From: Polyangiaceae bacterium
GTDB lineage: Bacteria; Myxococcota_A; Polyangia; Polyangiales; Polyangiaceae
Assembly (NCBI GenBank): GCA_029266615.1
Contig: JAQSWN010000025.1
Coordinates: forward strand, 1 to 64,000
Reading direction: 5' to 3'
Length of the DNA: 64,000 nucleotides
Below, piece by piece: positions 845 to 24,655 of this stretch (positions are counted from its first letter, which is position 1; each line of letters opens with the position of its first letter). The notes under the pieces were generated by a model. That model was not told where the DNA came from and did no database searches. It saw only the letters and a program-made list of their open reading frames with translations. The translations under genes and the position numbers were made by a program.

Positions 845-2221
845 TTATTCCTCTTCGGGCCCGGGCGGCGGGGCGGTGCCGTCCAGATGGCGATACAAAG
901 TCTTGCGCCCGATGCCCAGGACGCGCGCGGCTTTGCTCTTGTTGCCCGCGCACGCCTTGATGACCCGGGCGATATAGCGGCGCTCGACCTCTTCGAGCGG
1001 CAAGAGCTCGCTCGGGTCGTCGCTAGCGATGAGCACGTGGCCCGGCTGAAAGTCCCGCACTTTGCGGGGCAAGTCTTGGAGATCCACCACGTCCGAATGA
1101 CTGAGTGTGACCGCGCGCTCCACGCAGTTGCGGAGCTCGCGCACGTTCCCGGGCCAGTCGTAAGCGGCGAGCTTCTCGGCGGCAGCGGCGCTGAATTTTG
1201 CGATCGGCTTTCCGCTACGGACCGCGAGCTCGCCCAAGAATGCCTGGGCCAGCAACAGCACGTCCCCGCTGCGCGAACGAAGCGGAGGCAGCTCCACGTG
1301 AATGACGTTGACGCGGTAGAACAGATCCTCGCGGAAGCGGCCTTGCTCGACCGCAGCCTCGAGATCCCGGTTGGTCGCCGCGATGACGCGCACGTCGAAT
1401 GGCACCTCGTGATTGGAGCCGAGGGCGCGCACCGTGCGCTCCTCCAGCGCCCGCAGCAGCTTGCCCTGGAGCGCGAGCGGCATGTCGCCGATTTCGTCCA
1501 AGAGGAGCGTACCGCCCTGGGCCGACACGAGCAGCCCATCTCGTCGCGTACGCGCGTCCGTGAAGGCGCCGCGCTCGTAGCCGAATAGCTCGCTCTCCAA
1601 GAGCGTCTCCGGCATGGCCGCGCAGCTCACGGCCACGAAGGGCCGGTCCCGGCGCGAGCCGCGCGCGTGGATTTCTCGCGCCACGAGCTCTTTGCCCGTG
1701 CCGGATTCGCCCGTGATGAGCACGGTAGAGTCGCCCGTCTGCAGGTGCTCGATGGTGGCGTAAAGCCGGCGCATCGGCTCGCTGCTGCCGATGAGCGAGC
1801 CGTAGCGTTGGGAGGTGTCGACCACCCGCCGTAGCGCGTCCACCTCGGTGCGAAGCTCGTGATTTTCCACCGCGCGCTTGAGCACCAGGCCGATCGTGTC
1901 GATGTCGAACGGCTTGGTGACGAAGTCGTAAGCGCCGGCGCGCATAGCAACGACGGCCGAGTCGATGCTGCCGAACGCAGTCACCACGACGACGGGCAGA
2001 TGAGGCTTCATCTGCTTCACGCGGCTGCAAAGCTCGCTGCCGCTGACGCCCGGCATGTTCAGGTCCGTGACGACGACGTCGAACGGCTCTGTCTCGAGGC
2101 GAGCCAGCGCGGCCACTGGGTTGGTGTCCCAAGCCGCCTCGAAGCCAGAGTCGCGGAGGGCGTCCGCGAACATTTCACATTCAGCGCGTTCGTCGTCGAC
2201 GATGAGTGCACGAGGTTTCAA
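845..2221 (-). CDS. NtrC-family sigma-54-dependent response regulator
   Basis: 458 aa in the classical three-domain order. The receiver domain (1-118) has the acidic pair D9/D10, phospho-acceptor D53 and K103. The AAA+ domain (about 140-375) has Walker A GESGTGKE (171-178), Walker B LLLDEIGD (239-246) and an arginine-finger region. The sigma-54-contact loop reads GAFTDA (218-223) rather than GAFTGA, a variant found in many two-component activators. A Fis-type helix-turn-helix fills 411-446. It activates sigma-54 RNA polymerase by ATP hydrolysis when phosphorylated. The start ATG overlaps the stop of the upstream kinase by 4 bp, so the pair is translationally coupled. Targets are unknown; a sigma-54 promoter is present at 59660 in this window. 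Confidence 0.93.
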   Translation of the reverse strand: MKPRALIVDDERAECEMFADALRDSGFEAAWDTNPVAALARLETEPFDVVVTDLNMPGVSGSELCSRVKQMKPHLPVVVVTAFGSIDSAVVAMRAGAYDFVTKPFDIDTIGLVLKRAVENHELRTEVDALRRVVDTSQRYGSLIGSSEPMRRLYATIEHLQTGDSTVLITGESGTGKELVAREIHARGSRRDRPFVAVSCAAMPETLLESELFGYERGAFTDARTRRDGLLVSAQGGTLLLDEIGDMPLALQGKLLRALEERTVRALGSNHEVPFDVRVIAATNRDLEAAVEQGRFREDLFYRVNVIHVELPPLRSRSGDVLLLAQAFLGELAVRSGKPIAKFSAAAAEKLAAYDWPGNVRELRNCVERAVTLSHSDVVDLQDLPRKVRDFQPGHVLIASDDPSELLPLEEVERRYIARVIKACAGNKSKAARVLGIGRKTLYRHLDGTAPPPGPEEE

Positions 2222-3669
2222 GATGCCACCGCCGGCAGGAACACGGAGAATGTGCTCCCCATTCCCGACTGACTAACGACGGAGATGCTGCCGCCGTTTT
2301 CGAGGATGATGCCGTGGGCGACGCTCAGGCCGAGGCCGGTGCCTTGGCCGACGTCTTTCGTCGTAAAAAAGGGCTCGAAGATGCGCGCTTTAGTTGGTTC
2401 GTCCATGCCGTGTCCGTCGTCCGTTACCCGCAGGTAGGCGCGACGGCCTCCAGACGGGGGGTCGCCGTGAGAGGCAGGTTCCGTGCCACAGGTGATGCGC
2501 ACCCTGCCCCCTCGAGCGCAAGCGTGGATGCCGTTGACGACCAGATTCGAGAGCACCTGCTCGAGCTGGACCGGATCGCCTAAGGCCATGGCGTCCCCAT
2601 CGACGCCGATCTCGACCTCGACCCCGTGCTTCATCGCGATGGGCTCGACCAAACGCGCGGTGACGCGCGCGATGTGGTGCAAGTCCGTCGGCGCCGGTCG
2701 CGGCTCGCGTCGCCCCGCAAAGTCCAGCAGCTGGCGGATGATGACGGTCATGCGCTCCGCTTGTTCGGCAACGGCGGTGAGGTACTCGGACCCGACCTCG
2801 GCGTCGACCGTGCCGCGACGGAGCATCTTCACTCGCCCCGCGATGACGTTGAGCGGCGTACCGAGCTCGTGCGCGATGCCGGCGGCAAGCCGCCCTACCG
2901 TGATCAGGCGGTCGGCGTGGCGGAGCTGCTCGATTGCATCGATGCGCGCGGTGGTCTCCGCTTGCGTTCGCGCGTTGGCCTCGGCAAGCCGTTCGCACAT
3001 GGCGTTCACCTCGCTCGCCAGCTCTGAAATCTCATCGCGCTGTCGGAAGGAGAGCGGCCCCGCCAGATCACCTTGACCGATGCGCTGCGCTTTCGCGGCC
3101 AACAAATTCAGGGGCCTTCCGACGAGCCACACCCCCATCACGAGCACGACCATGCCCGAGAACCCGACCATCGCCAGGGTCGCGGCCAGCGTGCCCACGA
3201 GATTTCCGCGCACGAACTCGTCGCGGATGCCGAGCCGCTCGGCGATCTCGACCGCGCCGAGGAGCTCCCCTTTGTCGCCGTGCACCGGCACGCGCGATAC
3301 CAGAAATTCTTCGTCTGGCTCGCTCGGGTCCGCCATCACGAAGTTCTCGAGGTAATTGACCACGCCGCGCTGCGAGACGCGCCCTGGCGCGATCTCGTTT
3401 TGGCGGCCGCTCGGGTGAACGAAGCCGACACGCATGTGCTGCCGCTCCTCGTCGGCCTGGCGCACGAGCTGCATGGCGCGCGCTTGCCCGGCTACGATCC
3501 ATTCGTCCGCGACGCACACGGCGAGCGTCGTACCGACGAGCAAATGATCGCGCCGCATGTCCAAGTCGAAGAGCTCGATCTCTTTGCGGGCGCGAACCCA
3601 GCCGAAGATGATCAGCACCGCCAACGTTCCGAGCACCGTGGCCAGCACCAACTTGAGGGCAACTCTCAT
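2218..3669 (-). CDS. Sensor histidine kinase partner of the NtrC-type regulator
   Basis: 483 aa. One N-terminal membrane segment (about 5-24), a periplasmic sensor domain (about 25-155) of double-Cache/PAS-like length, a second membrane segment (about 158-183) and a HAMP linker (about 184-236). The HisKA box GIAHELGTPLNVI carries H267; the HATPase domain (about 365-480) has the N box NLVVNGIHA, G1 DDGHGMD, F box FEPFFTTK and G2 GQGTGLGL. It autophosphorylates H267 and should pass phosphate to D53 of the overlapping regulator. A sigma-70-like promoter with a flanking inverted repeat lies about 70-100 bp upstream. The signal sensed cannot be told from sequence. Confidence 0.93.
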   Translation of the reverse strand: MRVALKLVLATVLGTLAVLIIFGWVRARKEIELFDLDMRRDHLLVGTTLAVCVADEWIVAGQARAMQLVRQADEERQHMRVGFVHPSGRQNEIAPGRVSQRGVVNYLENFVMADPSEPDEEFLVSRVPVHGDKGELLGAVEIAERLGIRDEFVRGNLVGTLAATLAMVGFSGMVVLVMGVWLVGRPLNLLAAKAQRIGQGDLAGPLSFRQRDEISELASEVNAMCERLAEANARTQAETTARIDAIEQLRHADRLITVGRLAAGIAHELGTPLNVIAGRVKMLRRGTVDAEVGSEYLTAVAEQAERMTVIIRQLLDFAGRREPRPAPTDLHHIARVTARLVEPIAMKHGVEVEIGVDGDAMALGDPVQLEQVLSNLVVNGIHACARGGRVRITCGTEPASHGDPPSGGRRAYLRVTDDGHGMDEPTKARIFEPFFTTKDVGQGTGLGLSVAHGIILENGGSISVVSQSGMGSTFSVFLPAVAS

Positions 3670-3739
3670 TCGGGAGGCCGGTAGCCTTACGCCACACCAC
3701 CTCCGAGTCGATGCCGGGTGACCCTACATTCGAGTAACC

Positions 3740-3774
3740 TATGAATCGTTTCGCCACTACCGTGTCAAAACGAT
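3740..3774 (-). promoter_or_regulatory. Sigma-70-type promoter with inverted-repeat operator for the kinase/regulator operon
   Basis: On the minus strand a perfect -35 TTGACA (complement of 3763-3768) is followed after exactly 17 bp by TTCATA (complement of 3740-3745). It points at the kinase start at 3669. The 7-bp arms ATCGTTT (3745-3751) and AAACGAT (3768-3774) form an inverted repeat with 16 bp between them; one arm touches the -10 box and the other the -35 box. A dimeric repressor or activator could bind here. Function is inferred from the match only. Confidence 0.55.
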
Positions 3775-3783
3775 ACACTCAGA

Positions 3784-3948
3784 TCAGGGGTTGCTGTCTC
3801 GCTGCTGGGTGCGCTCAGCGTCGGCCAGCTTCTGCTCCACCTCTTTGAGGTGCTGCTGGTCCAACGTCGTGCGCATCTCGCCCAAGGCGCGCTTGGCTTC
3901 ACGCAGCTTGAGCGAGCCCCGGTCGAAGTCGATGCAGATGAGGCACAT
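3784..3948 (-). CDS. Small conserved-type CxxC-like protein, 54 aa
   Basis: A short frame from ATG at 3948 to TGA at 3784-3786 gives 54 residues starting MCLICIDFDRG and continuing in a strongly charged helical pattern (LREAKRALGEMRTTLD, then KEVEQKLADAE). The two Cys in the first five residues (C2, C5) make a CxxC pair that could bind metal or be redox active. The composition, with amphipathic heptads, looks like a real protein. I recall similar tiny CLICI-type proteins from myxobacteria but cannot verify that here. It lies 15 bp downstream of the Dabb gene, probably in one transcript. Function unknown. Confidence 0.6.
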   Translation of the reverse strand: MCLICIDFDRGSLKLREAKRALGEMRTTLDQQHLKEVEQKLADAERTQQRDSNP

Positions 3949-3963
3949 GGCTAAAGCCTACCA

Positions 3964-4263
3964 CTAGAGCTCGTAGTCGACGACGCGCCGCTCGGTTCGA
4001 AGCCCTCCAATCAGGTTTTTTACCGGTTCGTGCGCGGGGTGCTCCGCGTATGCGGCGAGCGCTTCCCAGCTGTCGTGAGTGGTGGTCAGCACGAGATCTG
4101 CCTCTTGCTCGCCGCTCACGAGGCCGATACCCACCTCCATCTTCGTGAGGCCCGGCACTTGTCCGAACATGCCGAGAAGCGCCTCACGGGCCTGCTCCGC
4201 CTGGAGGCGGCGGTCCTCCACCGTTGGCCCCTTGAGCTTCCACATCACGATGTGACGGATCAT
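3964..4263 (-). CDS. Stress-responsive A/B barrel (Dabb) domain protein
   Basis: 99 aa that form a single Dabb domain. It opens with the typical strand MIRHIVMWKLKG, then a long helix, LTKMEVGIGLV, the strand ADLVLTTTHDSW, and closes with AYAEHPAHEPVKNLI and a final VVDYEL strand. Dabb proteins are dimeric ferredoxin-like alpha+beta barrels; family members are stress-induced proteins or cyclases/decarboxylases of polyketides, and the small stand-alone bacterial ones are mostly uncharacterised. The His in the first strand and the HPAH motif are conserved positions. It lies upstream of the 54-aa CxxC protein on the same strand. A 10-bp perfect palindrome sits 12 bp before its start. Confidence 0.85.
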   Translation of the reverse strand: MIRHIVMWKLKGPTVEDRRLQAEQAREALLGMFGQVPGLTKMEVGIGLVSGEQEADLVLTTTHDSWEALAAYAEHPAHEPVKNLIGGLRTERRVVDYEL

Positions 4264-4274
4264 CGCCGTGCAAT

Positions 4275-4284
4275 ACCACGTGGT
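4275..4284. promoter_or_regulatory. 10-bp perfect palindrome upstream of the Dabb gene
   Basis: ACCACGTGGT at 4275-4284 is a perfect palindrome beginning 12 bp upstream of the Dabb start codon (4263, minus strand). In this position a bound protein would block translation-start-proximal transcription. The rest of 4264-4472 contains no gene that I can support; no Pho box was recognised ahead of the porin. Confidence 0.3.
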
Positions 4285-4472
4285 GCTCGGACAGCCGCCA
4301 CGGAACTTTCCGAGGCAAGCGCCTGGAGCATCAGCGGCGCCGTTTTGCCGGTGGGTTCGGTGGTCATCGAGAGCTCGTGCTCGCCGGTAGCTCCGCTAAA
4401 TCGCAGCTCAAAACTGATCGGTCGGAGAGAGCGGCGGCTACAAGGTAGTGAGTTGCTTTTCGTGTCTGCCCG

Positions 4473-5915
4473 ATGACTCCCGCATGCAGTTTGAGTGACA
4501 GATTCCGAGGATTGTGCACAGCCCCTTCCCTTGGAGTGCTGCTGCTGCTGCTGCTCGGGAGCCAAAGTGCGCGCGCGCAGGTTCCGGCCGCGCTGCCCGC
4601 AGCGCCTGCACCCTCGCCAGGGCCCGCAGCCGCGCCGGATTTGCCGCCGTCCTCCCGCGAAGCCGCGCCGGTCGCCACGGATCCCGCCGCGCCGGCCGAC
4701 GGAACAGCGGAGGACACGACGGCCGAGCTCGGGGCCGACGAGGAGGGGCGCAAGAAGAGGAAAAAGCGCAAGCATCGCAAACCCACGGACGACGACGCCG
4801 CTCCAGTGCCGGCGCTCGACGCGGCAAGGGCCGGCAACGCTGCGGACAAGAAGCGAGAGAAGCCAAACAAGCACGACTTCCGGCTCAAGGGTCGAGTGTT
4901 CGCGCTCGCCGAGCTTTCGCACCGGCGCGAGCGCGTGGTCACGGTCGAGAGTGGCCTCGTCGACCGCGACCGAGACGCGCTCGACGTGGAGCTGCAGAGC
5001 GCCCGCATCGGCGTGGACTACCACTCACCGTTGCCTTGGCTCTCGGCGGAGGTCGAGCTCGAGCTCGCCGGCAACGTGGAGGCCAAAGACGCGTTCGTGA
5101 AGGCGGGGCAACTATTCTTCGTCAAGGCCGGCCGCTTCAAGGTGCCGGCGGCGGCGATGGAAGTTGCTTCGCCGTGGACGCTACCGCAGGTGCGCCGTGG
5201 CCTCGTGCACAACTTGCTCGTCGATTGGATGGACGTCGCGGGTCGCGCGCCGGGCGTTGCCTTCGGGTACCACGAAAAGACTGGCCTCAAGCCGCGCGTC
5301 ACACTTGGGGTGTTTCAAGGTTCCACGCTGAAGAGCGTGCTCGGCTCGGACCGTGACGTCCGGCTCATCGACCGCGCGACGCTGCATGCGCAAACGTACG
5401 CGGCGCGCGCGGAGATCTCGCCGTTCGGCATCGCGCTGGGCGCCTGGTACGAGCAACGCGTCAACTCCATCGCCCTGAATCGGACCGCTCACTACGCGAC
5501 GTTCGGCTTGGACGCGACGCTCGACCGCAGCTTCGAGCATAGTGGAGTGCGCGCCTGGATCGACGGCGGCGCCGGGCAGAGTCCCTACCTGCACAGCGAA
5601 AAGCCGGGCCAAGGCGATCGAGCGTGGTTCACGTTCGGTCGTGCGCAGTTGGCGTACCGGCTCGGTGGGGTCGCGCAAGACGACCCTTACCTAGAGCCGT
5701 TCGGCTTCTTCGCGGTGCTGGATCCGGATACCGAGGTCGTATCCGACTTGGTAACCGAAGCCGCCCTCGGCGTGAGCGCCGGCTTTTGGGATCGTGCACG
5801 AATCACGCTCCAGGGTGAGATAACGAACGGCCAGCGTAACTTTCCGGGTGGGTTTCTCGGCGGTCAGACGCCGGACCACCGGAGCCTCCTGCTCCAGGCG
5901 GGAGCACGATTCTGA
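4473..5915 (+). CDS. Phosphate-selective-porin-like (OprO/OprP type) outer membrane protein
   Basis: 480 aa. A signal peptide with six consecutive Leu codons (CTG run near 4541) ends at SARAQ. A disordered Pro/Ala-rich and then very basic segment (about 37-130, with KKRKKRKHRK) precedes a beta-barrel region that opens with FRLKGRVFALAELS. Porin-like features follow: VDYHSPLPWLSAEVELEL, the FFVKAGRFKVP strand typical of the O/P porin family, alternating aromatic strands, and a last strand LLLQAGARF ending in Phe. O/P porins pass phosphate or pyrophosphate across the outer membrane. The stop overlaps the next start by one base, so it heads the phosphate/polyphosphate operon. The call is by pattern, not alignment. 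Confidence 0.7.
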   Translation: MTPACSLSDRFRGLCTAPSLGVLLLLLLGSQSARAQVPAALPAAPAPSPGPAAAPDLPPSSREAAPVATDPAAPADGTAEDTTAELGADEEGRKKRKKRKHRKPTDDDAAPVPALDAARAGNAADKKREKPNKHDFRLKGRVFALAELSHRRERVVTVESGLVDRDRDALDVELQSARIGVDYHSPLPWLSAEVELELAGNVEAKDAFVKAGQLFFVKAGRFKVPAAAMEVASPWTLPQVRRGLVHNLLVDWMDVAGRAPGVAFGYHEKTGLKPRVTLGVFQGSTLKSVLGSDRDVRLIDRATLHAQTYAARAEISPFGIALGAWYEQRVNSIALNRTAHYATFGLDATLDRSFEHSGVRAWIDGGAGQSPYLHSEKPGQGDRAWFTFGRAQLAYRLGGVAQDDPYLEPFGFFAVLDPDTEVVSDLVTEAALGVSAGFWDRARITLQGEITNGQRNFPGGFLGGQTPDHRSLLLQAGARF

Positions 5916-7621
5916 TGTTCATCGTATTCGAGGGCATCGACGGAAGCGGCAAAACCACGATCTCCAACCGTGTGGCCGCGGCCCTGACCGCGGAGGGCAT
6001 TTCGGTGAAGCACCTGCGCGCCGAAGGGAAGTTCGTGTCACCCGTCTCCGAAGGCATCCGCGAGTTCGGGCGCAACTCGCAGAACTGGGACTTGTCGTGG
6101 CAAGCGGAGTTCCTGCTCTACGTGGCGCGGGACGTTCAACTGATCCACGAGGCGCTACGCCCGGCGCTCGCGGATCACGACATCGTGCTTGCCGACCGCT
6201 TCCTGTACACGCCAGAGGTGCTCGGCCGCCACGGCCGGCGCCTGCCGGAGAGCTTCACGCGCCCCATCCTCGCCGCTGCTGCGGATGGCTTGGAGCCGGA
6301 CTTGGTGATCCTGATCGACGTGGATCCAACCTTCGCGCGCGCTCGCCGCAAGCTACGCAAGCTTGCCGAGCAACCGGCGAAGCCGCCGTCGCGCAAGGGC
6401 CTCTCGGGCGTCGGCCTCCAGCAGCGGCTGCGTCATGGCTACCTCGCGATGGCGGGCGAGCACCCGGAACGTTGGGTCGTGCTCGAAAACGAAGACGCGC
6501 TCGAGCGCAGCGTGGAGCGCGCCGTGAGCCTGATTCGCGACGCGCACCGTGAAGGAGCCGCGCGCGCGATCGCGCGGTTCCGAACCGCTGCGAAACGAGC
6601 GCCGAACGCCGCCGCGGTCACCAGCCTAGAGGGTGCGCTGACCGCGTTCTTGAGGGTCGTAGACGGTTTGAGCGCCCGCGAGCCGCGCGTCGCGGCGTAC
6701 CTGCTCGGCGGCATGTTCGGGCCCGAGATCGACGAGCGCCGTCGAGCCCTGTTCGAGCGCGCGCCTGACGCGGTGCTCGCGGCCGCGCGAGACTTGCCTG
6801 ACGAGACGAGCTTCGAGCTGCGGCGTCGCGCCTGTCGCGAGCACCCCAGCCATACGCTGCGCTCTCTCGGCCTCTCTCTGCGCAGCCCCGGCGGCTGGGA
6901 GCTGTGGGAAGAGCTCGCCGAGCTCGCTCCCGCCGACGCGGTCGCGTGCCTCACGGGCATGGACGAAGAGCGCGCCTGGCACGCGCGAGAGCGCTACTAC
7001 GCCGCAAGTCCCGCCCTGGCGGCGCTGGTGATCGGCAGCTTGCTCGGCATCGGGTCGGCCCGGGCGGCCCAGCTTCGACAACGGCTGCTCACCGAGCGCG
7101 AGCGGGAGCTCGGAAGTGACTACGACATCGCTCGTTCGCTCGCTCGTTCGGTGACCGGGCTCGCGGACGAGGCCGCTTGGGCTCTGCGACGCGCGGCGCG
7201 CCCGGCCGCCCCCGTGGCAGCCTTGGCGTCGCTCCTGGGGGTGTCCGACGCCGAGAGCTGGCGCTGGCGCGCGGACGCGCTTCGCCGCGCTCCGAAGGTG
7301 GTGATGGCGACGCTGCGCGACCACTCCGAGAGCGAAGCGTGGGAAATGCGTCGAAGCGTCGCGGCGGATTGCAAAGAAGCGCTGGACGGCCTGCAGGGTG
7401 TGGACAGCGAGCCCGCATGGGCGTTGCGGGACGGCGGCCGAGACATTTGGCCGTCTACCGTGGTCAAGACGCTCGGAAAATTGGCCGACAATCCTCGCGG
7501 CCGCGCCCTCGTCGAGCGACAGCTGCGAAGGTACCCTGACAACGTTTCACTCCTCAAGCACGTGTCGAGCATCTCACTCGGTCTGCACCGACTCGACCTC
7601 AACTCCGACGAACCAAGCTAA
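5915..7621 (+). CDS. Thymidylate-kinase-fold P-loop protein with C-terminal W-x-x-R repeats
   Basis: 568 aa. Residues 1-215 resemble a dTMP kinase: MFIVFEGIDGSGKTT gives the P-loop (G7-T15), D94-R95 matches the DR(Y/F) motif, VILIDVD is the third strand, and a Lys/Arg-rich LID follows. The family normally ends near 215 residues; here about 350 more follow. They contain a repeat of 26-28 residues with an aromatic and an Arg three positions later: F300, W328, W355, W422, W449, W476 and W502, each followed by helical Ala/Leu-rich sequence. This looks like an alpha-solenoid. In a VTC/porin/Na-Pi operon the substrate may not be dTMP; polyphosphate kinase 2 enzymes share this fold. Actual substrate unknown. 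Confidence 0.75.
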   Translation: MFIVFEGIDGSGKTTISNRVAAALTAEGISVKHLRAEGKFVSPVSEGIREFGRNSQNWDLSWQAEFLLYVARDVQLIHEALRPALADHDIVLADRFLYTPEVLGRHGRRLPESFTRPILAAAADGLEPDLVILIDVDPTFARARRKLRKLAEQPAKPPSRKGLSGVGLQQRLRHGYLAMAGEHPERWVVLENEDALERSVERAVSLIRDAHREGAARAIARFRTAAKRAPNAAAVTSLEGALTAFLRVVDGLSAREPRVAAYLLGGMFGPEIDERRRALFERAPDAVLAAARDLPDETSFELRRRACREHPSHTLRSLGLSLRSPGGWELWEELAELAPADAVACLTGMDEERAWHARERYYAASPALAALVIGSLLGIGSARAAQLRQRLLTERERELGSDYDIARSLARSVTGLADEAAWALRRAARPAAPVAALASLLGVSDAESWRWRADALRRAPKVVMATLRDHSESEAWEMRRSVAADCKEALDGLQGVDSEPAWALRDGGRDIWPSTVVKTLGKLADNPRGRALVERQLRRYPDNVSLLKHVSSISLGLHRLDLNSDEPS

Positions 7622-7637
7622 ACTGAAAGACTCGCGC

Positions 7638-8378
7638 ATGACGCTTCGCTCACTCTTGCCTGCACTCGTGCTCACGCTGATCGGCTGCGGAAGCGTGGAT
7701 CCTTCGGCCTCTCCAGGCCCCGGCGCCGGGGGCGACGGAGCGGGCGGCTCCGGCGGCAGCCTGGGACCACAGGGACCCCTCTTGCCGTGGGAAGAGGGCA
7801 ACAAGTGGACGTACCGCATCACCAAGGACGGCGTCACCAGCGTCAAGACCACGACCATCGGCGAGCTTACGGCGGTGGGCGGCGTCGGCCCCAACGCGGA
7901 CCTGATGGCCTACCACGTCGTCACCGCGAAGGGCGCGGAGCTCGCCGATCGAACCGAGAGCTGGCAGGCGCAAGATCCGGAAGACGAGGACCGCATCATC
8001 CGATTCCGGGAGCTGTCGTTCGACGCAACCACCGGCGAGCTGGAGCTGGAAGAATATTGGGACGCCGCGAAGCTGCACATCGACGGCAGCCCAGCGCGCA
8101 CCGTGAAGGATGCGAGCTGGCTAGAGACGTACCAGGAATACAAGCTCGAGGTTGGCCTGTCCCCGACCGATCACGAGGTTCGGGAGCGCTGGACGGTGCT
8201 GGACGACGACGCCACGGTGGAGGTGCCAGCCGGCACCTTCGAGCACGCGATCCACTTGCAGAAGATCGGCAGCAGCACGACCAAGGAATATTGGTACTTG
8301 CGCGGCGTCGGCAAACTGAAAGAGACCGGCTCCCAAACGGAAGAGCTGGAAGACTACGAGCTGAGGGGGGCGCCGTGA
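7638..8378 (+). CDS. Lipoprotein of the polyphosphate locus
   Basis: The start at 7638 is chosen because it yields a lipoprotein signal peptide with lipobox LIGC (C17). Then comes a Gly/Pro/Ser-rich linker (about 18-45) and a soluble domain of 200 residues that begins PLLPWEEGNKWTYRIT. The WEEGNKWTY opening and later VEVPAGTFEHAIHL resemble small lipoproteins of myxobacteria in which a beta-rich domain binds an unknown ligand; TF-A-I-L steps recur in that family. The gene sits 17 bp after the kinase-fold gene and overlaps the VTC gene (GTGA), so it is part of the same operon. It may tether or sense at the membrane; function unknown. Confidence 0.7.
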   Translation: MTLRSLLPALVLTLIGCGSVDPSASPGPGAGGDGAGGSGGSLGPQGPLLPWEEGNKWTYRITKDGVTSVKTTTIGELTAVGGVGPNADLMAYHVVTAKGAELADRTESWQAQDPEDEDRIIRFRELSFDATTGELELEEYWDAAKLHIDGSPARTVKDASWLETYQEYKLEVGLSPTDHEVRERWTVLDDDATVEVPAGTFEHAIHLQKIGSSTTKEYWYLRGVGKLKETGSQTEELEDYELRGAP

Positions 8379-9229
8379 GCAACTCCTCGCCCGCTCTAGA
8401 TTGCTCGCGTGCGGCGCAGGCCGACGCGGCGATCACGGCGGAGCGAGAAGAAACCAAGTATCTGGTCGAGAAACGCGACTTGCCCGCCCTGCTGGCGCGG
8501 ATTTCCGCGCAGCTCGAAGCTCATCGGTTCACCGGGGAGGCCGCGAACCGCCTGCCCGGCGCCGAGCACTTCGTCACGACCATCTACTTCGATACGCCGA
8601 GCCTTCGCTACTATCGCGCAGCCCAGGAGAACCAGCACCGTAACCTGAAGATTCGCGCCAAGGAGTATTACGACCTGCACCCATCGCTGGCGGAGCTGGC
8701 GACGGACACGGCGCAGATCCTCCGCTACCAGCCGTGGTTATGGTTCGAGCTGAAGCGGCGGGAAGGCTCCGTAACGAGCAAGCGCCGCTTTCGTTTCGCC
8801 AAGGCCGCCGCGGCGACGCTCTTCGAGCAGCGCCACGTGGCCGGCGACTTGCCTTCGCAAACGGCGGAGGAGCGTGCGGACGCGGAGGCGATGATGGAGT
8901 ACGTCCGCGCGCAAGACGAACGTGTCGCGCCGAGCGCCCTCGTCAATTATCGGCGGCTCTCCTTTCAAAACGCGGACGGCACCCTGCGCGTCACCGTGGA
9001 CCTTGGTCTTTCGTTTTTCCCGGTGCCGGCGGATCTGTTTCTTCGCGCTCGTCCCCTTTCGCGGAGCGAGCTCGGCAAGCCGGCGGGTGTCGAGCCCCGA
9101 GCCGTGGTCGAGGTGAAGCGCCGCGCGCTCCTGCCGGATTGGCTCGAGCGCGCCCTCTGCCAAACCGCGGGCGCCCAGGTCAACTACAGTAAGTTCGTGG
9201 CTGCGAGCAGGGCTCTGCATGGCGGCTGA
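8375..9229 (+). CDS. VTC-domain protein, probable polyphosphate polymerase
   Basis: 284 aa from GTG 8375, which overlaps the lipoprotein stop (GTGA). It has the VTC tunnel-domain signature in order: EETKYLV (K28), TTIYFDTPSLRYY, LKIRAKEY (K92, R94), FELKRRE (E125, K127), SKRRF (K136-R138), VNYRRLSF (R193/R194), RVTVDLG (D209), VVEVKRR (E246, K248) and a final NYSKF. In yeast Vtc4 this domain polymerises the gamma-phosphate of ATP into polyphosphate, using a ring of basic residues and acidic metal ligands. No SPX or membrane segment is present, unlike the yeast protein. The neighbour ending over its stop codon is a Na/Pi-cotransporter-like protein, which supports a polyphosphate role. Confidence 0.85.
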   Translation: MSNSSPALDCSRAAQADAAITAEREETKYLVEKRDLPALLARISAQLEAHRFTGEAANRLPGAEHFVTTIYFDTPSLRYYRAAQENQHRNLKIRAKEYYDLHPSLAELATDTAQILRYQPWLWFELKRREGSVTSKRRFRFAKAAAATLFEQRHVAGDLPSQTAEERADAEAMMEYVRAQDERVAPSALVNYRRLSFQNADGTLRVTVDLGLSFFPVPADLFLRARPLSRSELGKPAGVEPRAVVEVKRRALLPDWLERALCQTAGAQVNYSKFVAASRALHGG

Positions 9230-11312
9230 GCCGCGCGGAGCTCGCGGGCGCTCCGGCGGCGTGAGGTTGCTCATTGCGTGGCTGCTCACGGCGCTCATCG
9301 TCGGTGTGTATTTCAGCCTTCCGGACGGCGACGACGCGCCGACCTTGAGCGCAGACGGCGGCGCCCAAGAGCAGCCCATTCCCGCTCGCATCGAGGTGAC
9401 CGCAGTCACGCCCGCGGACGCCACGCCGGGCAGCGCGATAACGGTGCAGTTCGCCGGTGCCGTGCACCCGGAGCAGGTCACGGCATCGCTAGGTAAAAGC
9501 CAGCTCACCGTGCTCTCTCGTCAGGAAGACGCGCTGGTCGTGCGCCTGCCCCAGCAGCTTTCGCCCGGACATTTCAAGCTCCGCGTCGCGGACGGCCAAG
9601 AGCGCAGCAAACCCTACGATTTGCGGGTGAAGCTCGAGAACTGGCGCAAGCCCTTCCGCAGCCTCGTGGGCGGTTTCGCGCTCCTCGTCTTCGGGATCGG
9701 CGTGCTGGGCCGAGGCGCACGCGAGGCGGTGGGCCTGCGCAGCACGCACGCGCTGGCGCGGTGGGCGCATCGGGGTCCGGCCGCGCTCGGCATGGGCATC
9801 GGTCTCGGCGCGCTCTCGCAGTCGACGACCGCGGCCGCGAGCGTGCTGTCGGGGCTCGTCACCGGTGGACTATTGGCGCTGGGACCGGCAGCAGCGGCGT
9901 TCCTCGGCGCTCAGCTCGGCACGGCGAGCGCCCCCCTCCTGAGCGGACTATTCGATCCACGTGAGGGCTTACTGGTCGTCGCGTTGGCGGTCATGTGGCT
10001 CGCCTTCACCACGACGCGCCGGGGCACCGCCCTCGCCCGGCTCACCCTCGGTGTGGGTCTCATCGCGTTCGGCTTGCAAACGCTCCGCCCCGGCTTCGAG
10101 CCTTTCGTTCAAGATCCAACCCTGCTCTCCGTCGTGCTCAAGCTGCGCGCCACGGACGTAGTCGGCGTCGCGACGTGCGCTCTGCTCGGGGCGGCGCTCG
10201 TCGCAATCTTTCAGGGTCCCGCGCCGGTGTGCGTGCTGGTGCTCGTCCTCGCGCAAACCACCGCCCAATGGGACTTGCGCACCGCGCTCTCCGTCCTCGC
10301 CGGCTCCGGGCTGGGCGCCGCCGTGGGCGCGACGTTGGGCGGACTGTCCAGCAAGCGCTCGCGCAAGCTCTTGCTGCTCAACCTTGCCCTGGGCCTGGCC
10401 AGCACCCTGCTCGCGGCGTCGCTCGTAGACGTCGCGGCTCGAATTGCAGATCTTCTCGTGCCCGGGGTTCCGCACGAAGTACGTTGGGGTAAGCGCGTCC
10501 TGCTGCCGCACTTGGGCGTGCACCTCGGCGTGGCCTTCGCGCTCTCGCAGCTCAGCTCCGCGCTCTTGCTGCTCCCAGCAACGTTCCCGCTCGCTCGACT
10601 CATCGAGCGCTGGTTTCCTCAAGACGCGAAAACGTCGTTGCCCAACGTAGGCGACGCCGCCCGCGTGACCCAAAGTCGCTTGCTGGAGGTGTGCGAAGCC
10701 CAGCTCTCGGCACTCGCGCCGCTACGCGAGCTCGTGTTGGCAGGCGATCGTGACGCGGGCCAGCGCGCGGAGCACGCGCTCGGCGGTGCCCAGGCCCTCC
10801 TGGACGACCTCATCGCCGGCCCCATGATGGCCCTCGGTGACGCCCCGGAAAGTCGCGCCTTGCGCGGAGCTGCGCTCACCAGCGTGCAGTTACAGCGCAG
10901 CTTGGAGGGTTTGGAGCGCCAAGCCGCTCGCTTCGTGGATGCGCGCGTCGCCCTTTCCGGAGACGCCCACCGCTCCGAGCTCGCCGCCGACGACATCAGC
11001 GCCCTCGAGCAAATGCACGACCTCTTGGCGAGCGCGGGCGAGGCCGCCCGAGACACTCTGCGCGACCGCTCCGCCTCGGATCTCGACTCGGCCCGCGCCC
11101 GGGAGATCGCGATGAACGCCATTGAAGCACGCCTGCGCAAAGCCGTTCTCGAGGGCGGACCGCAGACCGTCCGCAGTCACCTGCTCGTCCTCAAGCTCGC
11201 CGACGCTTACGAAGCCGCCGGAAACCAACTGTACCGCCTCAGCGAAGCCCTCTCCGAGGGCGCCGCCGAAGCGCCGCCCGAATCTCAGAAGCTCACGAGC
11301 CGCCGGCTCTAA
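9219..11312 (+). CDS. Na/Pi-cotransporter-family protein with N-terminal IPT/TIG and C-terminal PhoU-like helices
   Basis: 697 aa, overlapping the VTC gene by 11 bp. An N-terminal membrane anchor (about 15-34) is followed by an extracytoplasmic Ig-like IPT/TIG domain (about 56-138; ITVQFAGA ... LVVRLP). Membrane segments follow from about 145 to 470. The first transporter repeat has LSQSTTAAAS (Q201), matching the QSSSA sodium/phosphate motif of the NptA/YjbB family. The second repeat has FQGPAPV (Q332), so the second QSSS is lost. The C-terminal 200 residues are a helical PhoU-like domain. It would move phosphate across the inner membrane, supplying or draining the polyphosphate system. Direction is not predictable. 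Confidence 0.8.
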   Translation: MAAEPRGARGRSGGVRLLIAWLLTALIVGVYFSLPDGDDAPTLSADGGAQEQPIPARIEVTAVTPADATPGSAITVQFAGAVHPEQVTASLGKSQLTVLSRQEDALVVRLPQQLSPGHFKLRVADGQERSKPYDLRVKLENWRKPFRSLVGGFALLVFGIGVLGRGAREAVGLRSTHALARWAHRGPAALGMGIGLGALSQSTTAAASVLSGLVTGGLLALGPAAAAFLGAQLGTASAPLLSGLFDPREGLLVVALAVMWLAFTTTRRGTALARLTLGVGLIAFGLQTLRPGFEPFVQDPTLLSVVLKLRATDVVGVATCALLGAALVAIFQGPAPVCVLVLVLAQTTAQWDLRTALSVLAGSGLGAAVGATLGGLSSKRSRKLLLLNLALGLASTLLAASLVDVAARIADLLVPGVPHEVRWGKRVLLPHLGVHLGVAFALSQLSSALLLLPATFPLARLIERWFPQDAKTSLPNVGDAARVTQSRLLEVCEAQLSALAPLRELVLAGDRDAGQRAEHALGGAQALLDDLIAGPMMALGDAPESRALRGAALTSVQLQRSLEGLERQAARFVDARVALSGDAHRSELAADDISALEQMHDLLASAGEAARDTLRDRSASDLDSARAREIAMNAIEARLRKAVLEGGPQTVRSHLLVLKLADAYEAAGNQLYRLSEALSEGAAEAPPESQKLTSRRL

Positions 11313-11336
11313 GCTCAGCCGTCCCCCCGAGCCCGC

Positions 11337-12221
11337 TCAGCTTTCGCCAGCGCGACAGAGCGCGAGCCAGCGCTCGAGCGCCCGGCTGTGAAATTTCTGC
11401 CGGTGCACTACGAAGAAGAAGAAACGGCGAAAATCCCGCCCCGGAACCTGACAGGGCACCAAGCTCTGGTGCTTGAATGCGTCCACCAGCGCCACGCGCG
11501 ATACGCACCCCAAGCCCAAGCCCGCCTTCACCGCGCCCTTGATGGCCTCCGTATGCTCGAGCTCCAGCACGACTTGCAGCTCCGGCAGCAAGCCGTGCAT
11601 CGCGCGCTCGAAGGTCTGGCGCGTGCCGGAGCCCTGCTCGCGCAAGATCCACGCGGCGCCCTTGAGGTCCGCGTCGGACAAGCGCGGGCGCTGGGCGAGC
11701 GGATGATTCGGCGCCGCGAACACGCACAGCTCGTCGTCGCGCCATCGCGTCACCGAAAGCTCGTCGTCGGAAACCTCACCTTCGACGAGCCCCACGTCGA
11801 TCTCGAAGTTCTTCACCTGCCGCGCTATCTCCACCGTGTTAGCCACGTGCAGGCGCACGCGCGACCCCGGGTGCTCGCGCATGAAGCGCGCCATCAGCGG
11901 CGCACACAGGTAGTTGCCGATGCTCAGCGTCGCGCCCACGCGCAGCTCGCCCTCCTCCGTCTCACCGGAAAGCCCCGCTTCCAACTGGCGAGCTTGGGCA
12001 CACAGCGCCTCTGCGCGCGGCCGGAGCGACCGCCCGACCTCACTCAACTGCAGTCGCTTGCCGATCCGTTGGAACAGGCGAATGTCGAACTGTCGTTCCA
12101 ACTCCGCGAGAGAGCCGCTCACTGCCGATTGCGACATGGCGAGCGATTCGGCCGCCCGGCTGACGCTCTCGCTCTGGGCCACCGCCGCGAACACCTCTAA
12201 TTGTCGCAAACTGAAGCGCAT
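11337..12221 (-). CDS. LysR-family transcriptional regulator
   Basis: 294 aa from ATG 12221, the usual length of the family. The winged helix-turn-helix occupies 1-60 (MRFSLRQLEVFAAVAQS, then SRAAESLAMSQSAVSG), with the linker helix and the LysR-substrate domain (about 90-290; LRVGATLSIGNYL, VGLVEGEV, GLGLGCVS). It acts as a tetramer controlled by a small effector. It is divergent from the ferredoxin-NADP reductase, with 72 bp between the two starts, and LysR proteins usually control the gene facing them. The arrangement resembles CysB/CbbR/YeiE-type regulators. The short stretch 11313-11336 separates it from the convergent Na/Pi gene. Confidence 0.9.
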   Translation of the reverse strand: MRFSLRQLEVFAAVAQSESVSRAAESLAMSQSAVSGSLAELERQFDIRLFQRIGKRLQLSEVGRSLRPRAEALCAQARQLEAGLSGETEEGELRVGATLSIGNYLCAPLMARFMREHPGSRVRLHVANTVEIARQVKNFEIDVGLVEGEVSDDELSVTRWRDDELCVFAAPNHPLAQRPRLSDADLKGAAWILREQGSGTRQTFERAMHGLLPELQVVLELEHTEAIKGAVKAGLGLGCVSRVALVDAFKHQSLVPCQVPGRDFRRFFFFVVHRQKFHSRALERWLALCRAGES

Positions 12222-22531: not shown

Positions 22532-24655
22532 TCAGTCGGGGTCCCCGGGCAGAGCTTGGGGCGTCAAATCGGCGCGAATGGAGCGCTTGAGCTCGTCGAG
22601 CAGCTGCGTCTCGGTGCGCGAGACCTCGCCGCGGGGCTCGGGCCGCTCCGCGAGCGCCTCCACGAGGGGCGAGCGCACAGCCTCGGGGAGCAAGCTCTCC
22701 AAGTACTCCAGAGCGGTTCCGCGCAGCTTGCGGTCGTCGGTGCGTAGTCCCTGGCGCACGAGCTCCATGGACCCCCGCGTGAGGCACAGCGAAAGGAGCG
22801 CGAAGACGTGGTCGCTCGCATCCTGCGAGAGGGGGCCTCGCTCCAGCTCCGAGAGCGCGAGCGCGAAGACCTCCTTGCTGTCGGGCAGGAGCGCGCGATC
22901 TTCGTGCGTTACTTCGGCGAGAGCCAGAGCCGCGCGGTAGCGCACCTCGAGCGCCTCCGCGCCGAGCGCGCGAGTGAGCGCGGAAACGACCCGGGGCCCG
23001 CGCAGCGCGCGCAGCACGTGGGGGACGCGGCGACGCACCGCGAGCGGCTGGGCGCTGCTCAGCATGACGTCTGCCAGTAGGCCGACGACGTCCGGCCCCA
23101 TCGAGCGCAGCGCCGCGAGCGCGGCCTTGGCGAGCTGCTCCGACGCCAAGTGCGGGATCACGAAGGCGGCGAGGCGCTGATCGAGCGAAGGGCGGGAGAG
23201 CAAGCTACGTAGCGCGCTCACGTCCTGTCCGAGCAGCGTGCGCACGTCGGCGACGAGCTTTTCCTGGTCTACCGCCGCCGGAGGCGAGACCACGGTGTCG
23301 GCTTGGGCGCGAGCGGCTCGGTCCGCGCGCGCGCGCTCGATCTCGGCGCGAAGCTTGTCGCGGTCGATGCCCAGCGTCGTGGCCGAGAGCGTGAGGCGCG
23401 CCGCGGGATCTTCGACCTCCACCGCCTCCACGCTGACCGTGCCCGCGCGCAAGCTCGCCTCCAGCTCCGCCACGTAGCCTTGCCGGGCACGCAGCGAGAG
23501 CAGCAGCGCTAGCGCAAACGCGAACGTCGACAGCAGGAGCGGCACCCGCTCGATCATCAGCGGGCTCCCCAGCGAAACCAGCAAAATCGCCAAGCTGGCG
23601 GCGGCGTCCCCGCCCTTGTCGAACACGACGTCGATGAGGGACTTGGTGGCGCGCTTGGTCGCCGAGGGTAGCGGCGTGAACAGCGGCTCGAAGGCGCTGC
23701 GGAAGAGCGAGGGTCCGAGGGCCAAATCCGCTCCGCGCAGCGCGCCCATCGACCAGAATGACGGCGAAAGCGACGCGAACGCGCCGAGACCCACGCCGAG
23801 CGCGGGCGAGACGGCGAGAGTGCCGCCCAAGCCGAGCGTGCCGAACAAGGGCCGCGAAACGAACGCTTGCAAGACGAAGCTGAGGAGCGACCCTGCGGTG
23901 TAGAACACGGCGAAGAAGCGCACCAAGGACTCAGCGCTGCCGAAGCGCGCCTGAGCCGCTTGCTTGAGGGCGAAGTCCGCGAAGGCGGAGGCGGCCGCGG
24001 TGCTGGTAACGAGCAGGGCAAGCGTCCAAAGGTAGCCGCTGAACTTGACCGGCTCCTGCACGCGGCTGGCGGGGCCGCTCGAGGTGCTGTCGGTCGCGGC
24101 GAGTCGCTGTGAGCAAGCCGCGGAGAGCAGGCATATCCCCGCCACCAGCAGCAGCGTGCTGCGCGCGTCGAACCAGTGCGCGCCTCGCTCCATCGCCGCC
24201 CCGCCCAGCAGACCGCCCAGGGTCGCGCTGGCCGTGATGCGCCCGACCGAGCGCTTCATGGAGTGCGGATCCAGCCGCTCGTTCACTAGAGACCAGAAGG
24301 CGCTGATCATGAGCGCGCCGCCGATGGAGACGTGCAGGTAGACGGTGAGCGCAATGGCATGCGCCGCGAACGGCAGCAGCGCATACTCGGCCACCGAGAG
24401 CCCCGCGCTCACCACGAAGAGCAGCGGCGTCAGGCGGTCCGGCCCATGACGCGTCATCAGCCGAGACACGAGGAGGACGACCGGAATCGCGCAGAGCGCC
24501 GAGGCGAGCATCACCTTCGGCAGGTCTTGGACCTTGAAGATCGATAGGAAGAGCCCCTCGCGCAGCGATTTCCCGGCCACCTGGTGGGCGATGGCCAAAG
24601 CGGCCGTGAGCATCGCGAGCCGGACGGCGTGCCCTTCGGCGCGTGAGCTATCCAC
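22532..24655 (-). CDS. NTT/MFS-type membrane protein with C-terminal HEAT-like repeats
   Basis: 707 aa. The N-terminal 410 residues hold about 11-12 membrane segments in an MFS/NTT-like arrangement (AHQVAGKSLREGLFLSIF, PKVMLASALCAIPVVLLVSR, KSLIDVVFDKGGDA). The KSLREGLF and DVVFDKGGD blocks recall nucleotide transporters of the ADP/ATP-translocase (Npt) family and their non-plastid relatives with HEAT domains. Residues about 410-707 are soluble helices with HEAT-like repeats (AALRSMGPDVVGLLADVM, RVPHVLRALRGPRVVSALTRAL, EVRYRAALALAEVT). NTT proteins exchange ATP and ADP in organelles and obligate intracellular bacteria; substrate here is unknown and it may be a fused regulator of transport. 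Its gene abuts the TPR-PEGA gene without a gap. Confidence 0.7.
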   Translation of the reverse strand: MDSSRAEGHAVRLAMLTAALAIAHQVAGKSLREGLFLSIFKVQDLPKVMLASALCAIPVVLLVSRLMTRHGPDRLTPLLFVVSAGLSVAEYALLPFAAHAIALTVYLHVSIGGALMISAFWSLVNERLDPHSMKRSVGRITASATLGGLLGGAAMERGAHWFDARSTLLLVAGICLLSAACSQRLAATDSTSSGPASRVQEPVKFSGYLWTLALLVTSTAAASAFADFALKQAAQARFGSAESLVRFFAVFYTAGSLLSFVLQAFVSRPLFGTLGLGGTLAVSPALGVGLGAFASLSPSFWSMGALRGADLALGPSLFRSAFEPLFTPLPSATKRATKSLIDVVFDKGGDAAASLAILLVSLGSPLMIERVPLLLSTFAFALALLLSLRARQGYVAELEASLRAGTVSVEAVEVEDPAARLTLSATTLGIDRDKLRAEIERARADRAARAQADTVVSPPAAVDQEKLVADVRTLLGQDVSALRSLLSRPSLDQRLAAFVIPHLASEQLAKAALAALRSMGPDVVGLLADVMLSSAQPLAVRRRVPHVLRALRGPRVVSALTRALGAEALEVRYRAALALAEVTHEDRALLPDSKEVFALALSELERGPLSQDASDHVFALLSLCLTRGSMELVRQGLRTDDRKLRGTALEYLESLLPEAVRSPLVEALAERPEPRGEVSRTETQLLDELKRSIRADLTPQALPGDPD

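Follow-up and report, generated by a model that had tools for sequence, protein, structure and literature searches.

In bacteria, polyphosphate is usually regarded as the work of the PPK enzymes. For the yeast VTC complex, the Vtc4 exchanges R264A/R266A/E426N impair catalysis (excerpt of PMC9911596), and Lys-458 is described as catalytic (excerpt of PMC4641920). In a Gram-positive precedent, genes for CotH, a poly-phosphate polymerase and DUF4956 are neighbours of one another and lie beside pel genes (excerpt of PMC7112168). In the open-licence PMC literature, judged by titles and the beginnings of abstracts, we found neither work on the function of a bacterial VTC protein nor a description of the gene set reported here. 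This set lies in a stretch of 64,000 nucleotides from a Polyangiaceae bacterium (contig JAQSWN010000025.1, positions 1 to 64,000; hereafter the window), where a VTC gene is embedded in a compact group of five genes and directly followed by a gene for a Na/Pi-fold membrane protein. We show that the five genes are a real conserved unit, and we tentatively read it, with a probability of roughly 0.42, as an envelope module in which VTC-type polyphosphate synthesis would be coupled to export, the Na/Pi-fold protein serving as membrane partner.

The locus spans positions 4473-11312 of the window, with five packed ORFs on the + strand and junctions of -1, +16, -4 and -11 bp. The genes encode a likely OprO/P-like porin of 480 aa (4473..5915), a thymidylate-kinase-fold protein of 568 aa with a C-terminal alpha-solenoid (TMK, 5915..7621), a predicted lipoprotein of 246 aa that is DUF3108-like via its relatives (7638..8378), a VTC-domain protein of 284 aa with a GTG start, predicted to be a polyphosphate polymerase (8375..9229), and the Na/Pi-fold protein of 697 aa (NaPi, 9219..11312), whose gene is overlapped by the VTC gene by 11 bp. 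Number, direction, spacing and family assignment of the ORFs agree with what a model had proposed from the letters alone (the sequence-only reading).

For the analysis of conservation we combined nine loci from a scan of genome contigs (L002-L010) with 80 hand-picked VTC neighbourhoods, two of which repeat L009 and L010, and searched the ORFs of all fetched loci with profiles of the five window proteins. In a VTC tree of 91 rows the window protein falls into a set of 14 (bootstrap/SH-aLRT 99/92), to which the proteins of genomes G046 and G304 are sister (16 rows, 99/94). All five genes, the porin included, are found in nine of the 14 clade loci, in three different orders, and VTC, NaPi and TMK are kept together in 11. 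The order porin-TMK-lipoprotein-VTC-NaPi is shared by the window, L002, L004, L005, L119 and L124; L006 and L007 show porin-lipoprotein-VTC-NaPi-TMK, with the TMK of L007 present as two ORFs, and L008, from Paraliomyxa miuraensis, shows TMK-lipoprotein-VTC-porin with a divergent NaPi gene. L009 and L010 hold VTC-NaPi-TMK, L003, a contig of 8 kb, holds lipoprotein-VTC, and L122 and L131 are extra locus-type VTC copies of genome G267, also the source of L119, each beside CotH and not NaPi. The survival of the gene set through such reshuffling argues for function. VTC with NaPi and TMK furthermore recurs in the sample families f1, f7, f11 and f16 and in named genomes. Among 120 listed VTC homologues, 50 lie on contigs of at least 5 kb, and for 23 of these the size of the longest contig recurs among 120 listed TMK-solenoid homologues, an indirect sign that the two genes share contigs.

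The same association is seen at the level of whole genomes. The VTC subfamily (E<=1e-10) occurs in seven of the 329 phylum genomes sampled, namely G000, which is the window's own genome, G046, G085, G258, G267, G286 and G304, belonging to five families. The TMK query matches 12 genomes; in seven of them the match reaches the solenoid, and these are exactly the seven with the VTC subfamily, while the remaining five have the kinase domain only. In G046 the TMK-solenoid protein lies in two pieces on two contigs. The 7-of-7 coincidence has a probability of 1.3e-14 if genomes are taken as independent, which they are not. Full-length NaPi was found in five of the seven genomes, each time directly beside VTC, and three other NaPi matches, in other genomes, are partial. 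Joint conservation in relatives had been set beforehand as the point on which the unit could fail, and both the nine of 14 clade loci and the genome coincidence speak for it.

The VTC protein matches PF09359 with 98.2 bits (cut-off 23, E 6.9e-28) as its sole Pfam domain at E<=0.01, so that no SPX domain was found; NCBIfam gave no match. A search with the single sequence against solved structures returned nothing; with a profile built on 24 homologues, yeast Vtc4 is found (E 2.4e-4). In the residue mapping, which is shifted by one after an insertion, K28 (8456..8458, + strand), K92 and R94 (8648..8656, +, as K92-I-R94), R194, R205, E246 and K248 (9110..9118, +, as E246-V-K248) and K273 (9191..9193, +) take the places of Vtc4 K200, R264, R266, R361, R373, E426, K428 and K458, the last being the residue called catalytic. 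All eight are invariant in the alignment of 24 sequences, with Lys at the position of R264, and R24 is basic as in Vtc4. Equivalents of Vtc4 K281 and K294 were not placed, as the alignment shifts there. By these residues the protein looks catalytically complete and is likely a polyphosphate polymerase.

NaPi is the sole PF02690 match in the genome of the window (59.1 bits, cut-off 29.1, E 6.1e-16); its Na/Pi matches in NCBIfam are sub-threshold. In models of NaPi-II the QSSS residues are placed in the Na+ and substrate sites (excerpt of PMC6325988). The window protein has QSTT instead in repeat 1 (9819..9830, +) and QGP in repeat 2 (10212..10220, +); QGP is present in all 11 locus-type proteins, in which the repeat 1 motif is degenerate, whereas QSSS stands in both repeats of four ordinary Na/Pi proteins, encoded by three phylum genomes, except that one of the four has QSSH in the second. 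Because QGP replaces a motif for Na+ and phosphate, plain phosphate uptake is unlikely, and a reading of NaPi as a Na/Pi transporter of the usual kind is not supported. The solved structure of SLC34A2a is recovered by a profile of nine NaPi proteins at E 1.1e-6, and the match is confined to the first repeat. The AF2 model (pLDDT 78, pTM 0.58) consists of an N-terminal helix, a beta domain, the Na/Pi core and a C-terminal helical domain; with Foldseek the beta domain is weakly IPT/TIG-like and the C-terminus weakly PhoU-like (best E 0.019, target TM-score 0.75), nothing being found at E<=0.001.

Genes for VTC domains are widespread in the phylum (163 of 329 genomes), and in most scanned loci their neighbour is a gene for a different membrane protein. 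In 90 VTC loci, the window excluded, DUF4956 stands on the VTC strand in 68 and NaPi in nine, neither in 13, and both together in none. In these nine loci NaPi lies on the same strand directly after VTC; the window likewise has NaPi after VTC, and no DUF4956 or CotH at the locus. A 45-bit DUF4956 match in L008, on an ORF overlapping the CotH gene, was judged spurious. The two arrangements have parts in common, since L048-L051 and L105, which are of the DUF4956 type, carry the porin family of the window and L051 its lipoprotein family as well; Pfam confirmed CotH, DUF4956, VTC and Porin_O_P in L051. The HlyD profile has matches in 50 of 87 distinct loci. It is because of these wider neighbourhoods, with DUF4956, the shared porin and lipoprotein families and HlyD, that we see in NaPi another possible membrane partner of VTC and take the direction to be outward. 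Pairs of VTC and DUF4956 (L048-L127) are frequent in the phylum, and HlyD-type genes often lie with them.

Two kinds of putative surface enzymes accompany VTC at the genome level. CotH was found in 143 of the 163 VTC genomes and in 40 of the 166 others (Fisher test, kinship between genomes ignored), with the restriction that the profile, derived from a mixed CotH/LTD cluster, overcalls CotH; the CotH cases that we name rest on Pfam. CotH is present in all seven VTC-subfamily genomes, and the two matches in the window's genome lie on other contigs. Nine scanned loci, the window not among them, encode a PPDK_N protein (pyruvate phosphate dikinase, ATP-binding; an ATP-grasp domain) with a lipobox, for example L003:1817-3976, L005:3982-6096, L048:14916-17009 and L129:4357-6312. 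In L003 and L005 its gene overlaps the following operon gene, that of the lipoprotein and of the porin respectively, by 4 bp. The family (E<=1e-30) occurs in 110 genomes out of 324; of the 110, 87 also have VTC, all seven of the subfamily included; the table is approximate, as 329 genomes underlie the VTC count and the Fisher test again ignores kinship. We predict the PPDK_N lipoprotein to be a surface enzyme. In the window's genome, the PPDK profile and the CotH/LTD profile both hit one and the same 1068-aa ORF (L146:6575-9781, G000:C354).

The TMK protein of the locus is above the cut-off of NCBIfam TIGR00041 (90.2 bits, cut-off 83.25) and matches Pfam Thymidylate_kin (PF02223, E 3.2e-19). 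Its AF2 model (pLDDT 88, pTM 0.86) combines the TMK fold with C-terminal helical hairpins that form the alpha-solenoid, and the best 50 of 1032 matches in the PDB are all TMKs. The P-loop GIDGSGKTT and the DRF motif are kept. Other motifs differ both from solved TMK and from the one other TMK of the genome, with AEGK for EPGG/EPTS, ARDVQL for ADRMDH and PEVLG for SLAYQ; we take these to belong to the dTMP-binding site. We infer a specialised kinase, with a nucleotide-handling or regulatory role in the cytosol, rather than a housekeeping dTMP kinase. The other TMK (L016, G000:C392) has GSGSTT where the P-loop Lys is expected and the locus protein has GSGKTT; because the P-loop Lys is missing there, a dTMP-kinase role of the locus protein stays conceivable. 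We dropped the idea that TMK substitutes for CotH, as CotH also stands near this VTC type in L008, L122 and L131 and an LTD protein stands beside TMK in L129. An anti-phage role was dropped too: the PADLOC matches, over residues 1-202 to PDC-M51B (E 1.2e-8) and over just residues 1-35 to VakA (E 8.6e-7), were taken as TMK/P-loop similarity.

Porin and lipoprotein of the window match neither Pfam nor PHROGs, and both were assigned via their relatives. Seven of 12 aligned porins, the window porin not among them, reach Porin_O_P (PF07396) at E<=0.05; a PDB profile search with the porin returned no OprP or OprO, only threonine dehydratases at E>0.02, which we take as chance. Four of ten aligned lipoproteins reach DUF3108_like at E<=0.05, and the lipobox cysteine (Cys17 in the window) is invariant in all ten.

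Combining these data, we propose that in the cytoplasm VTC would turn ATP into polyphosphate and that, jointly with NaPi, it would pass the chain through the inner membrane in the direction of the likely OprO/P-like porin and the predicted lipoprotein. NaPi would here do the job of DUF4956 in other bacterial VTC loci and of the transmembrane bundle in yeast. The TMK-solenoid protein may be a kinase that works for this system in the cytosol, in nucleotide handling or in regulation. The system itself would act on behalf of the cell surface, the place at which CotH-type kinases and the PPDK_N lipoprotein may be active. A much bolder generalisation would make bacterial VTC systems envelope-spanning polyphosphate pumps, whose exported chain would be a phosphate donor outside the cytoplasm and energise the surface CotH and PPDK_N kinases, to which ATP is not available at that site, and the present locus a second architecture with a re-purposed Na/Pi transporter as conduit; we regard it as a long shot.

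Several observations weigh against coupled synthesis and export. The genome of the window has two PPK1 matches and three PPK2-domain matches in two ORFs, which also contradicts the sequence-only claim that VTC acts instead of PPK; completeness of the assembly is 98% and contamination 7%, and some PPK copies could accordingly be foreign. Three of the 14 clade loci (L003, L122 and L131) have neither NaPi nor TMK. G304 and G046 yielded no NaPi, and their VTC and TMK genes are on separate contigs; TMK sits there in L129 and L130 with a PPDK_N protein and the porin, L129 adding the LTD protein and the lipoprotein. Given these two genomes and the additional PPDK_N lipoprotein in L003 and L005, the view of the five genes as a complete, closed path is not supported. 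The membrane region of NaPi is poorly modelled, as the pTM indicates, the HlyD profile is broad, and the association of CotH with VTC takes no account of kinship. Finally, VTC E26 is invariant and acidic, and Vtc4 has Thr at that position.

This last residue leads to a rival that we hold to be unlikely yet worth weighing, in which VTC is another tunnel enzyme, a tripolyphosphatase or one that processes polyphosphate or NTP, with the operon serving the synthesis or handling of some other phosphorylated product of the envelope. E26 seems to fall at Glu-4 of AtTTM3, in the acidic patch of this plant tripolyphosphatase (excerpt of PMC4641920; the placing is inferred), and may perhaps be a feature of hydrolytic tunnel enzymes; the wealth of CotH and PPDK_N lipoproteins in VTC genomes would also suit such a product. 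Set against this are the basic R24, shared with Vtc4, and the invariant K273 in place of the catalytic K458. That the genes are chance neighbours is very improbable and largely refuted: gene order does vary, and L003, L122 and L131 hold only part of the set, but the overlapping genes of the window, the recurrence of VTC, NaPi and TMK across families and the exact coincidence of VTC with TMK-solenoid in seven genomes are hard to reconcile with it.

The other two rivals turn on phosphate itself. The names of the families to which porin, NaPi and VTC belong, and weakly the PhoU-like C-terminus of NaPi, would suit an import of phosphate through porin and NaPi with storage as polyphosphate by VTC, which was the main line of the sequence-only reading; QGP in place of QSSS in every NaPi, the presence of PPK1 and PPK2 and the coupling of VTC to DUF4956 rather than NaPi in most loci make this quite improbable. 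E. coli YjbB is reported as a phosphate exporter, and NaPi could in the same sense shed excess phosphate through the porin as exit, with VTC as the arm that stores phosphate in one common response to overflow. The Na/Pi fold and the PhoU-like tail agree with such an exporter, whereas the changed repeat 2 motif and the non-Na/Pi membrane protein beside VTC in most scanned loci disagree, and we give it slightly less credit still than uptake and storage. Polyphosphate export remains a fair reading of the locus and, by analogy, would fit better than import.

Around the operon, a divergent two-component pair on the - strand (845-3669), comprising a sigma-54 activator (845-2221) and a histidine kinase (2218-3669), is also present in L002 and is a possible regulator. 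In 3600-11700 no sigma-70-like promoters were found, and terminator-like sites number seven with 5.2 expected; no Rfam family reaches its gathering score across the window. Elsewhere in the window, on the - strand, a 707-aa ORF (22532-24655) shows HEAT repeats and a partial MFS match below the cut-off.

In summary, the locus offers likely candidates for the membrane partner and the exit pore as well as co-inherited kinases, which makes synthesis coupled to export in bacteria directly testable. The association with CotH across genomes hints at a way in which phosphorylation at the surface might be supplied. As in the yeast VTC complex (Vtc4 with Vtc1/2/3/5), a VTC tunnel domain with matching catalytic residues is present, and a membrane partner is expected to carry the chain across the membrane (for yeast, excerpt of PMC9911596). 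Unlike in yeast, the window protein has no SPX match, a Na/Pi-fold protein of its own would form the membrane part, and porin, lipoprotein and TMK-solenoid are added. NaPi resembles the Na/Pi cotransporters (SLC34/NptA, PF02690) in its domain match and in the SLC34A2a profile match over the first repeat, and departs from them in QGP, in the degenerate repeat 1 and, according to a moderate model, in the extra N-terminal beta domain and the PhoU-like tail. The kinase shares P-loop, DRF, fold and a TIGR00041 score above cut-off with dTMP kinases, and differs in the solenoid and in the altered motifs, which we presume to form the dTMP site. Close in layout is the cassette of CotH, VTC and DUF4956 (excerpt of PMC7112168; L048-L051 here), which likewise has VTC beside a gene for a membrane protein and has the porin family (L048-L051, L105) and the lipoprotein family (L051) in common with the window; the window locus, however, has NaPi and TMK-solenoid and neither DUF4956 nor CotH, and its VTC belongs to a separate clade. 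The locus is a variation on a little-studied bacterial VTC cassette, with a NaPi-type arrangement that, to judge from the open-licence PMC literature, is new.

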